Source of the DNA: Deltaproteobacteria bacterium
GTDB lineage: Bacteria; Desulfobacterota; GWC2-55-46; DRQE01
Assembly: GCA_015492495.1 (NCBI GenBank)
Contig: WGEY01000096.1
Location: 1-32,453, forward strand
Length of the DNA: 32,453 bases
Direction: 5' to 3'
In this document: positions 28,336 to 32,453 of the stretch, in pieces
Numbering within the stretch: position 1 is the first letter of the stretch
How the letters are laid out: every line of letters begins with the position of its first letter
Notes under the pieces: generated by a model
Told to the model about the DNA's origin: nothing
Databases searched by the model: none
What the model saw: the letters and a program-made list of their open reading frames with translations, nothing else
Translations under genes and position numbers: made by a program

Positions 28336-28436
28336 TCCCGGTATGCAAAAGGCGGGCGTACGTGGCTTCAACTGCGCCCGCCCTTGTTTCCGTAACCAGG
28401 GTCGACTACGCGTACAGGCGAACCAGGGAGAGGGCT

Positions 28437-28889
28437 TTGCCGATCAAGACAGTCTGCAGAAACAAGAAGGCTTACCATGACTACTTCATCGACGAGACCT
28501 TCGAGGCCGGTATATGCCTCGAAGGGGCCGAGGTGAAGTCGTTGAGGCTCGGCCGCGCAAACCTAAAGGACAGTTACGCCAGGATCAAGGACGGGGAGGT
28601 CTTTCTCTTCAACGCGCACATAAGCCCTTACGCGCAGGCCGACAGATCGAGCATGCCCGAGCCGGACAGGACCCGCAAGCTCCTCCTCCACAAGAGGGAG
28701 ATAAAAAAGCTCATCGGCAAGACCCGCGAGAAGGGCTTCACGCTTGTACCCACGAAGATATACTTCAAGGACGGGAAGGCTAAGGTCGAGATAGCGCTTG
28801 CAAGGGGCAAGAAGCTCTACGACAAGCGCGAGGCCATGAAGAAAAAGACCATCGAAAGGGAGATGGACAAGGCCTTCAAGAGACGGTGA
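28437..28889 (+). CDS. smpB: SsrA-binding protein, trans-translation factor
   Basis: It binds tmRNA and delivers it to stalled ribosomes. The start is placed at TTG 28437, preceded by GGGAGAGG. The product has 150 residues, normal for SmpB, and begins with the family pattern [18 protein letters not shown]. Further motifs are [36 protein letters not shown] and the basic C-terminal tail starting [17 protein letters not shown] at 28362 in the same frame would add 25 residues unlike the family. No tmRNA gene was found beside it. Confidence 0.95.
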
Positions 28890-29036
28890 CGCACCGCCCT
28901 GGGGAGGGGCCGACGGGCAGGGCTTAGGTCCGGGATACAATTCGATCCGACGGTGTCATTCCACCTGCATGCCCCCCTTAACCGTCCCCGACAACAAAAA
29001 TCTGATCATCGCTTCTTCCCGAGTATCGGCTCCACC

Positions 29037-32000
29037 TCATGAAATAAAATCGATTGCAACCAGTTTGAGTAGCTGGGGGTTATATGGCTGAATACCTTTA
29101 CGCTCCACGGCAATCTTGCCTTCCAAAAACTCCGATATGTCTTTCAAGAGTCGCTTCCAGTCCTTATGAATATTCTTGTAGTTCCGCCACACAGCCCTCA
29201 GCTGCTGAAGCCTCTTCTTGGTTAGACCAACCGAAAGGAGTCTTTCTTTTATCACCTCCCACTTTTCTTCGAGCTCTTTGTCTTCAGGAAAATCCAGAAG
29301 ATATTCATCCATCCTCAAATCCATCTCTCTGATGATGCTTGATACAAACTTCTTGCTTCTGTCACGGGTCAACTCGCTGAGCGTCGGGTCAACCGCTTCA
29401 CGTTGTTCCACCTCTTTATAAGTTGCCTCTACGTCACTGACAACTTCGGCATTTACATCATAGACCTTTTCAAAAAAATCTGGTATCACCCTCGTTTCCT
29501 CCGGTGGGCAGGAAATATAATCGAGTATCTTTGTCTTGTTCTTGATTACCTCACCTGTTGTAAGATCATGCAGATACCAGAAATGAAAATCATCACCGTA
29601 TTTATAGTAAAAGAATATGCCTTTTGTGCCCTTCTTAAGACCGCTATGGATACCAAACGGTATGGATTCCATCTCTTCCGCTGTCTTAGCCTTGAGGTAA
29701 TCCATTAATGGCTGATAGAACTTCTCACCGCCTCCGAAAACATCCCTCTCCAACTCATCGAGGACAGTCTCATCGCGCTCTCTTATCCTTCTTATGATTC
29801 CGAATACCTTAGGGTTTACCTCTTCTCCAAGAACGGTTGCGTCAAGCCCGACGGAGCTGTCTATGTTACGGATTTTATTCTGCAGAACTTCCACAAGGCG
29901 CAGCAGATCTTCCAGCTCCTCCTCGGGGAAGAAGTTATATACATGGATTTCCTTGAATGGAGAGCCTATCCTGTCTATCCTTCCTGCCCTCTGGATCATT
30001 CTGGTCGGATTCCAGTGCAGGTCATAGTTGATAAGATACCTGGCTTGCTGAAGGTTCATGCCTTCGGAGAGGACATCGGTACTCATCAGAATATCTATCT
30101 TTCCTCTCATGAAGCTGCTCACTACTTCGGAGCGCTTCCTCGCCGAGGTTATCCTCCCGGATATTTTTTCTATTCTAATCCTGGAAAATCGAGGGTCTTC
30201 TGATATGTTCCGGTAAATATAGTCCAATGTATCCGCATAATACGTGAAGATGACGATCTGTCCTTTTTGGCTCAGCTCCAGAAGCCTTTTTTTCAGTTCC
30301 TTCAGCTTTGCGTCAGCCTCTGCATCGATCGCACCTACTTTGTCTCTCATAGTTTTAAAGGTTGTTATATCCTTTTCGATATCTCCGACGAGTTCCTCTT
30401 TCCTGAAGTCCTCGATATTGATATCTTCCAGCTCCTCCAGGTACTCCTCGCCGGTCTCCTCATCAAGGTTTGAGACATACTTGTAGTAAGTCCGTTTTGT
30501 GAGAAGCTTGCCTTTGTCAAGATAGTTTTTTAACCTCTCAAGAAATCGTACATGATTGGCCACGCTCTTTCTGAATGCTTCGACACTGCTTTCAAGCCTC
30601 TTTAAAAGAATGGTTCTGAAGATGCCGTCCAGGGCCACCATCCTTCCAAGGGCCATCTCTTCGCCCGGTGAGAGTTTATCTACCTTTTTATATTCGAGGA
30701 TTCTGTAGTAGGCCATGGTCAGCTTTTCACTTATCGTTCGGGATATCTCGCCGTAAAGCCCCTGATACGCCTCATCAAGCTGATAATCAAAATTTTCAAG
30801 AAGTCGCTCAGGAAAGATAATCTTTTTTCCGTTTATCTCCGCATCAGGGTAGTTCTGCTTGATGTAGTCCCTTGTTCTTCTTATGGATATCTCATTCATG
30901 AGATCATTTAAGAGCATAGGGTCACCTTCCCTGTCGATCTCTTTGAAAAACCCGAAGAGATCTGAAATTCCCTCCCTGAGAAATGCCTTCTGGTCATTGA
31001 GTACAAGGAGCATCACCTGCCAGTAGAGATCCCATATGGTGTTGTTTATCGGCGTGGCCGTGAGAAAAAGGATGTAGGGCCTTCCACCGCCTTTCGATAC
31101 GTGATCCATTATCAGGGTAAAGAAGTTTTCCCACCTGTTTGAGAGGGGGTTCCTGAAGTTGTGGCTCTCATCTACGACAATCAAAGAGACCTCTTCAAGC
31201 CCCCCGCCGACGGCCTGTTTCGCCTTCTTTAGAAAATCACTCGATGCGAGCTCCTCCTGTGAAAGGATGCTCTCGGCAAGGATAAGGTCCTTTACCTCTT
31301 CCCTCCACATCTCCCTCAACTGGGCGGGACAGACAACGAGGAACCTCCTCCTCTTGTAAAAGCCGAACTCCTCGATAACCCTTTTGGCAATCCAGGTCTT
31401 GCCCAGGCCAACGGAGTCGGCCACCATGCATGCCTTGTATTTCTTGAGACGGCTGAATATCCTCCTTACAGCATCCTCCTGGAACTCCGCGAGGTTGACT
31501 TTTGAGGATGGGCGCAGTTCTTCCTCTTTTTTGGCTTCCCCGTCAGATAGAATGTCTTCTTTCTGCAGTTCATAAAGGGATTTTATGTAGACCTCAAAGG
31601 GGCTGTATTCCCTGGTCCCGAAACGTGAGGCCTCAAGCAGCCTGATGAGTTCTGGCTTGAAGTCCACGGCCTCGCTCCAGAACTTATCAAACCACTTCGT
31701 CCTTACATATTGAGCTTCGCCTTCGAGTGAAACAGAGTTCAGCTCTGTATTATGGGTTAGTCCCGAAGGTGTAAAGTTCGACGACCCCACGACCACAAGC
31801 TCGTCGAAGATATACGCCTTGCCATGGAGGAACTCCTTGTCATAAAGCCTTACCTCTACGTTTTTTCTGTTCAGGAATCCAATAAACTCCCTGACAAGGC
31901 TTTCCTTCTCCCTGGAGAGGTCAAACCTCTCGACCTCCTCCTTTATTATCTTCAGGAGAACGTCTCCAAGGGTGGTCTCGCTCTTTATCTCCGGCGCCCT

Positions 32001-32180
32001 CCCAAGAAGCAGGCGGAAACCCTTTACCCCCTGAATATTGTCCTTTAAAAAGGCGTAGGCCTGGATGTTGAAGAAGGCGGTGGCGATGTCGAATCGGGTA
32101 TCGGGGACCTCCTCAAGAACACTTTTAAGGAAGGCCGAGAGTTTTACATCGCTGTTGTCTATGATTTTTCTGGGGATCAC
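29037..32180 (-). CDS. PLD-family nuclease fused to SNF2-type superfamily II helicase, probable defence or DNA-processing enzyme
   Basis: This 1047-residue protein starts with GTG at 32180 (GAGG about 8 nt upstream). The N-terminal phospholipase-D-like domain has one complete HKD motif: H119, K121 and D126, then GSSN (132-135). PLD nucleases with a single HKD normally dimerise. A two-lobed helicase follows: FQEDAV (233-238), Walker A DSVGLGKT (255-262), DESH (337-340), LTATPINN (373-380), then STDVLSEGMNLQ and QRAGRIDRIGS in the second lobe. Charged helices make up the last ~250 residues. The gene is visibly more AT-rich than its neighbours (sampled lines near 42% versus near 57% GC), which suggests horizontal gain. 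PLD and SNF2 proteins are separate partners in DISARM and Dpd systems. Confidence 0.9.
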   Translation of the reverse strand: MIPRKIIDNSDVKLSAFLKSVLEEVPDTRFDIATAFFNIQAYAFLKDNIQGVKGFRLLLGRAPEIKSETTLGDVLLKIIKEEVERFDLSREKESLVREFIGFLNRKNVEVRLYDKEFLHGKAYIFDELVVVGSSNFTPSGLTHNTELNSVSLEGEAQYVRTKWFDKFWSEAVDFKPELIRLLEASRFGTREYSPFEVYIKSLYELQKEDILSDGEAKKEEELRPSSKVNLAEFQEDAVRRIFSRLKKYKACMVADSVGLGKTWIAKRVIEEFGFYKRRRFLVVCPAQLREMWREEVKDLILAESILSQEELASSDFLKKAKQAVGGGLEEVSLIVVDESHNFRNPLSNRWENFFTLIMDHVSKGGGRPYILFLTATPINNTIWDLYWQVMLLVLNDQKAFLREGISDLFGFFKEIDREGDPMLLNDLMNEISIRRTRDYIKQNYPDAEINGKKIIFPERLLENFDYQLDEAYQGLYGEISRTISEKLTMAYYRILEYKKVDKLSPGEEMALGRMVALDGIFRTILLKRLESSVEAFRKSVANHVRFLERLKNYLDKGKLLTKRTYYKYVSNLDEETGEEYLEELEDINIEDFRKEELVGDIEKDITTFKTMRDKVGAIDAEADAKLKELKKRLLELSQKGQIVIFTYYADTLDYIYRNISEDPRFSRIRIEKISGRITSARKRSEVVSSFMRGKIDILMSTDVLSEGMNLQQARYLINYDLHWNPTRMIQRAGRIDRIGSPFKEIHVYNFFPEEELEDLLRLVEVLQNKIRNIDSSVGLDATVLGEEVNPKVFGIIRRIRERDETVLDELERDVFGGGEKFYQPLMDYLKAKTAEEMESIPFGIHSGLKKGTKGIFFYYKYGDDFHFWYLHDLTTGEVIKNKTKILDYISCPPEETRVIPDFFEKVYDVNAEVVSDVEATYKEVEQREAVDPTLSELTRDRSKKFVSSIIREMDLRMDEYLLDFPEDKELEEKWEVIKERLLSVGLTKKRLQQLRAVWRNYKNIHKDWKRLLKDISEFLEGKIAVERKGIQPYNPQLLKLVAIDFIS

Positions 32181-32193
32181 TATTAAACCTCAA

Positions 32194-32244
32194 TCAATCT
32201 TTTCCGGCACATAACCTTCCTGATCTACACGCTCTCTTGGCCAT
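32194..32244 (-). CDS. Candidate 16-codon ORF just upstream of the helicase
   Basis: ATG at 32244 has an ideal AGGAGG 7 nt upstream (32252-32257 on the plus strand) and ends 13 bp before the helicase GTG. The product would be MAKRACRSGRLCAGKD. A one-base shift after the fourth codon gives a more protein-like reading (RVDQEGYVPEKID) that ends at nearly the same place. It may therefore be the remnant of a small gene or a sequencing slip. It could also be a translational leader. Confidence 0.3.
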   Translation of the reverse strand: MAKRACRSGRLCAGKD

Positions 32245-32267
32245 AAGGGTACCTCCTTATAGTTGGT

Positions 32268-32453
32268 ATGATGAACCGCTATAAATGGTACCTTGACTCA
32301 CAGTTCTCGCAGGAACTAGAGGGCTGGCTGCAGTTGAAGGAGTCGCCCGCCGAGTGGCATTTCGAACGCGTTAAGCTACATCACGGTCCCACGCGAATCT
32401 GAGTACTACTACGCGACTGCGGTGCGAAGAATCTACGCCATTAACATGTTCGA
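32268..32453 (+). pseudogene. Possible frameshifted or partial gene at the right edge
   Basis: From ATG 32268 a frame runs 44 codons (MMNRYKWYLDSQFSQELEGW...) to TGA at 32400-32402. In another frame the sequence stays open from 32338 to the window end, with the plausible protein stretch VPRESEYYYATAVRRIYAIN. A single frameshift between about 32340 and 32383 would join them. There is no ribosome binding site, and I recognise neither part. It could be chance, a broken gene, or lower-quality sequence near a contig end. Confidence 0.2.

Follow-up and report, generated by a model that had tools for sequence, protein, structure and literature searches.

A putative two-gene, ATP-dependent restriction-modification system built on an HKD nuclease–SNF2 translocase fusion

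The gene, its protein and its surroundings

The window, the whole stretch of 32,453 nucleotides that we analysed, is a complete contig (C96) of a Deltaproteobacteria bacterium and ends at position 32453. Near that end lies one intact open reading frame with exact boundaries (table 1). It is read from the minus strand, a point absent from the original prediction, and its GTG start coincides with the start of its homologues. The encoded protein matches PLDc_2, SNF2-rel_dom/ResIII and Helicase_C, all above the Pfam cut-offs. In an alignment of 22 homologues, 23–82% identical to the window protein, H119, K121, GSSN132–135, GLGK258–261, DE-H337–340, ATP375–377 and QR-GR730–734 are invariant, while the aspartate of the HKD motif varies. 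Pfam and the invariant residues thus agree with the prediction that the motifs of an HKD nuclease and a SNF2 motor are intact in a single chain of 1047 residues.

Table 1. Features of the window, with copies of the methylase 3′ end at homologous loci.
Feature	Position	Strand	Basis or remark
smpB, core-gene left border of transferred segment, outside the system	28362–28889	+	profile matches
HKD nuclease–SNF2 translocase fusion, predicted restriction (R) subunit	29037–32180	−	1047 aa, GTG start
Helicase_C, residues 625–739	29964–30308	−	Pfam, 82.5 bits
Motif VI QRAGR, inside Helicase_C	29979–29993	−	homologue alignment
SNF2/ResIII N-terminal RecA domain, residues 228–378	31047–31499	−	Pfam
Walker B, DESH, residues 337–340	31161–31172	−	homologue alignment
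Walker A, DSVGLGKT, residues 255–262	31395–31418	−	homologue alignment
PLDc_2 match, residues 100–168	31677–31883	−	Pfam, 43 bits (cut-off 27)
HKD motif and GSSN, residues 119–135 (HGKAYIFD...GSSN)	31776–31826	−	H, K and GSSN invariant in 22 homologues
Relic of multi-copy insertion sequence end, upstream of the HKD-SNF2 gene	32231–32292	−	62 bp
Methylase 3′-end copies	L006 4179–4388, 5020–5112, 6811–6903, 7694–7825		
Methylase 3′-end copies	L015 7448–7657, 8351–8482		
Methylase 3′-end copies	L017 5529–5693, 6240–6413, 6885–7007		

The roughly 300 residues C-terminal of the motor are covered by no Pfam model, and the Pfam search found no reader domain. An AlphaFold model of the protein (mean pLDDT 48.9) was too poor for use.

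To the left of the gene stands smpB, in a stretch of core genes that also holds rseC and rsmB. To the right, the insertion-sequence relic has 19 further matches in the genome, at 92–94% identity, most of those listed lying near contig ends. The gene had been placed between smpB and a possibly decayed edge; smpB is confirmed, and the edge proves to hold the relic of an insertion-sequence end. In the smpB flanks read in genomes of the same family, no HKD-SNF2-like gene lies 3′ of smpB. One family member carries a Dam-type N6-methylase gene and an unknown gene of 385 codons downstream of smpB (L120, 4407–6160), and this site may be a variable spot.

The GC content is about 58% up to position 29000 and 44–52% beyond it. 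The HKD-SNF2 gene itself has a GC content of 0.468, against about 58% in its surroundings. Its GC3 of 0.580 compares with a mean of 0.760 (SD 0.041) for the 17 other genes of the window (z = −4.4). The claim that composition drops sharply at the borders therefore stands on the left; to the right of the gene only 273 bases remain, and the border can be assessed on the left side only.

Distribution and transfer

If the gene is a newcomer, where are its relatives? Neither the family nor the order yielded a close homologue, 32% identity being the best in the order, and homologues of close or moderate similarity appear only sporadically among 297 genomes of the phylum. In a wider collection, proteins 59–82% identical occur in Nitrospirae/Thermodesulfovibrionales, Brocadia pituitae, a ‘Deltaproteobacteria’ bin, Thermoplasmata archaea and Argoarchaeum. 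More distant relatives lie on plasmids, those of cyanobacteria and Deinococcus at about 33–36% identity and those of actinobacteria and haloarchaea at about 28–31%. No relative was found in the viral contigs searched. Since distant lineages hold homologues of 59–82% identity and the family and order hold no close one, horizontal acquisition of the gene is well supported. The low GC3 and the patchy spread across bacteria and archaea together uphold the suggestion that an AT-rich segment was transferred. In most other hosts the composition of the homologue matches that of the host, as expected of older residents or of AT-rich donors. Two of the records are 99.9% identical over 6677 bases (L007 1–6677 and L012 7482–14158), even though one is named Thermodesulfovibrionia and the other Deltaproteobacteria; the near-identity reflects recent transfer or mis-binning.

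Might the protein instead be a housekeeping SNF2 protein of DNA repair or transcription recycling, in the manner of RapA? By sequence, the solved structures closest to the protein are RapA, in first place, and eukaryotic SNF2 remodellers; the likeness to RapA, however, is confined to the motor. The patchy distribution differs from that of a core gene, and the compositional anomaly, the invariant nuclease motif and the methylase neighbour described below likewise tell against a housekeeping role, which we regard as very unlikely. A consistent housekeeping setting, named beforehand as a sign against a transferred defence gene, was not encountered: the flanks of the homologues vary from locus to locus.

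A probable methylase partner, apparently interrupted in this genome

Which genes accompany the homologues? Most of those with readable flanks adjoin an Eco57I-type N6-adenine methylase of about 1200 residues. At L006, L009, L012 and L013 a protein of 1200–1298 residues, of one methylase family, is encoded upstream of the HKD-SNF2 gene; those of L012 and L013 match the Eco57I methylase (PF07669), and PADLOC assigns them to Type IIG enzyme models. The methylase is split in L015 and in fragments in L016 and L017, and the L007 record begins within its 3′ end. A methylase also adjoins more distant homologues (L071, L099, L101–L104, L108, L111 and L113–L116), upstream or downstream. At L105 and L106 a Type III-like methylase and helicase pair takes the place of the Eco57I-type partner. 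Within the DNA read, L109, L110, L112 and L100 have no methylase neighbour; that of L112 is a NACHT protein and that of L100 a giant sigma-70/AAA protein. This survey, together with a methylase of the same family on another contig of this genome, agrees with the expectation that partner genes lie beyond position 32453, and the adjoining methylase supports the proposal of a compact DNA-restriction effector.

The two proteins have diverged together. Over 17 loci the pairwise identities of methylase and HKD-SNF2 protein correlate at r = 0.83, a value reached in 0 of 5000 permutations, in a statistic that ignores species phylogeny and draws on loci all found through the nuclease subunit. Both adjacency and co-divergence are expected of a two-gene restriction-modification (RM) system.

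A profile of the methylase matches first CamA and BseCI, in an alignment that extends through the C-terminal recognition part of both, and next BrxX and MmeI. Because the alignment spans that part, the methylase probably carries the sequence specificity. By inspection its N-terminal 170 residues or so resemble a restriction-endonuclease-like domain that has degenerated. L012, L006, L009, L013, L015, L071 and L108 carry an E-x-K stretch there, but the position reads ETR in this genome, ETT in L016 and otherwise in distant copies. As E-x-K is not conserved and no acidic residue is fixed before it, we rejected an active PD-(D/E)XK nuclease. The AlphaFold model of the L009 methylase (mean pLDDT 38.8) was again too poor for use.

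Similar sequence turns up in another setting. A sigma-70 factor accompanies the HKD-SNF2 gene in two cyanobacterial loci (L099, 6411–7970; L100, 669–7874). The N-terminal 166 residues of the L099 factor share 32% identity with the N-terminal domain of the methylase (E = 4e-28), and in L100 a domain of this type, sigma-70 and an AAA-like region are joined in one protein of about 2300–2400 residues.

What has become of the methylase in the present genome? Its sole relative lies on contig C64 (20002–22221), which is 22325 bases long, and is 79% identical to the methylase of L012 over residues 3–734. The gene runs to the contig end, and the coding match stops at residue 733 or so, inside the Eco57I domain. 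The terminal 107 bp of C64 recur without change at the end of contig C38, which is what a repeated mobile element would give. The C-terminal 500 residues or so of the methylase (735–1232) have no match in the rest of the assembly. C64 and C96 are ordered and oriented as the pieces of a single broken locus would be; their ends show no overlap, and we infer that they were adjacent. The methylase looks to have been disrupted by an insertion-sequence end at about codon 733, with the HKD-SNF2 gene intact. With its methylase interrupted in this way, the HKD-SNF2 subunit is probably now an orphan. Directly upstream of the interrupted gene on C64 (L049, 7497–9473) we observed three genes, for a LuxI-type autoinducer synthase, for a LuxR-type regulator and for a protein consisting only of an autoinducer-binding domain. 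Contig C33 of the same genome holds a second defence-like locus (L050, 6068–13681), with an HmaA-like SNF2 helicase, SIR2, HerA and a PDC-S19 protein.

A restriction subunit that recognized DNA alone would, without its methylase, endanger the host. A host could tolerate the lone subunit if it is the methylase that confers specificity. The intact HKD-SNF2 gene fits methylase-supplied specificity, or a recently broken system. It would also be accounted for by a stand-alone, modification-dependent (Type IV) enzyme like SauUSI, with its own C-terminal recognition domain and only an incidental methylase neighbour. SauUSI has the identical order of PLD nuclease and then SF2 motor in a single chain (PMC7913695), some 300 residues here follow the motor without a Pfam model, and a few homologues stand without a methylase. 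On the other hand, pairing and co-divergence with the methylase prevail in most loci, Pfam detects no reader domain, and the motor is SNF2/RapA-like, whereas that of SauUSI, an enzyme with its own recognition domain and no methylase, is described as SF2 DExH. We hold the Type IV alternative to be unlikely.

The slot between methylase and HKD-SNF2 genes is itself variable. Copies of the methylase 3′ end (about 23–58 codons, partly decayed) recur there around inserted small genes (table 1). In L006 and in L015 the first insert encodes a 206-residue protein; the two belong to one family and, by our reading, resemble REP-associated transposases. In Argoarchaeum (L013, 3762–4799) the slot is occupied by a Fic protein (PADLOC SoFic), and other loci have HTH/peptidase, PIN, GmrSD_N or AbiEii-type genes. 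A speculative reading, to which we give little weight, is that methylase and HKD-SNF2 genes together make up a mobile RM chassis of two genes, with an intergenic slot that takes cassettes (toxin-antitoxin, ATPase and others), each with a copy of the methylase 3′ end. Cassettes might recombine between systems through that tail, and a restriction subunit devoid of specificity might persist harmlessly once its methylase is lost, as here.

The proposed system and its known relatives

We propose, with a probability of roughly 0.7, that the HKD-SNF2 protein serves as restriction subunit in an ATP-dependent, Type III/ISP-like RM system of two genes. The methylase, with its target recognition domain (TRD), would read a specific site and methylate host DNA there. 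An unmodified site on incoming DNA would lead to recruitment of the HKD-SNF2 subunit into a complex, in which the SNF2 motor would translocate at the expense of ATP. HKD domains would then pair and cleave the two strands, and could thereby act against phage. The models for this scheme of recognition, translocation and cleavage are the Type III and Type ISP enzymes (PMC7049714, PMC4666363) and SauUSI (PMC7913695).

The pairing would supply the missing partner of a frequently annotated, unexplained ‘helicase-related’ protein common to bacteria and archaea, and would cast the two as the components of a compact, ATP-dependent RM system that could be cloned whole. In the present genome a restriction subunit would have survived the loss of its methylase, a natural example that bears on the seat of specificity. 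A limited literature search, covering few subscription journals, found no published description of the two-gene pair.

How does the proposed system compare with known ones? The original prediction pointed to DISARM and Dpd, and SNF2, methylase and PLD components do exist in DISARM (DrmD, DrmMI, DrmC). DrmD is the best NCBIfam model for the HKD-SNF2 protein, but its 197.7 bits fall far short of the cut-off, 610; DpdE gives 119.6 bits against 500, and the DrmMI models match the methylase weakly. DrmA and DrmB were not recognized at the window locus, nor beside the homologues examined among the part of the neighbours scanned. Of the partners anticipated, a methylase relative was found, on C64; the only DUF1998-type protein of the genome lies away from the locus, on contig C49. 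Scores far below cut-off and context led us to reject membership of either family, and a DISARM or Dpd effector seems to us extremely improbable: no kinship other than a common SNF2 ancestry is supported.

The DUF499-centred BREX-Related Type-2 systems come closest among those published. They combine an HKD and Swi2/Snf2 fusion with an N6-methylase and a DUF499 ATPase, and DUF3780 occurs in 98% of taxa (PMC12839542); an archaeal version has COG1743-DUF499-SWI2/SNF2-nuclease operons with a COG1743 methylase (PMC7641849). An N-terminal HKD nuclease on a SWI2/SNF2 motor, an N6-adenine methylase partner (interrupted here) and an RM-like logic are shared. Could the present system be a reduced form that has lost the ATPase and the DUF3780 protein? 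We think it decidedly unlikely. This genome lacks DUF499 (PF04465), as do 14 of the 15 other homologue-bearing genomes or records tested, the one match being on a Halorubrum plasmid some 80 kb from its homologue, and the methylase is Eco57I/Type IIG-like, not COG1743.

CglI and NgoAVII are ATP-dependent RM enzymes that likewise combine a PLD nuclease with an SF2 ATPase, but there nuclease and motor form separate subunits, the former carrying the B3 recognition domain (PMC7913695). R-M-like operons, and likewise PbeABCD, have been described with HKD domains fused to SF2 helicases (PMC2292703, PMC10853773). PADLOC already has a candidate family of this kind, ‘HKD+Snf2’ or C3a139 (PDLC01075). It has the same architecture and is the best PADLOC model for the window protein (202.6 bits), but it fits the plasmid homologue L105, neighbour of the Type III-like pair, far better (415 bits).

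The Type ISP enzymes LlaGI and LlaBIII unite nuclease, SF2 motor, N6-methylase and TRD in a single chain. Here the same functions are divided between two polypeptides from separate genes, the nuclease is HKD rather than Mrr-type and the motor is of the SNF2 class. The distant homologue L116 nevertheless pairs with a methylase that bears a Type_ISP_C specificity domain, as in Type ISP enzymes.
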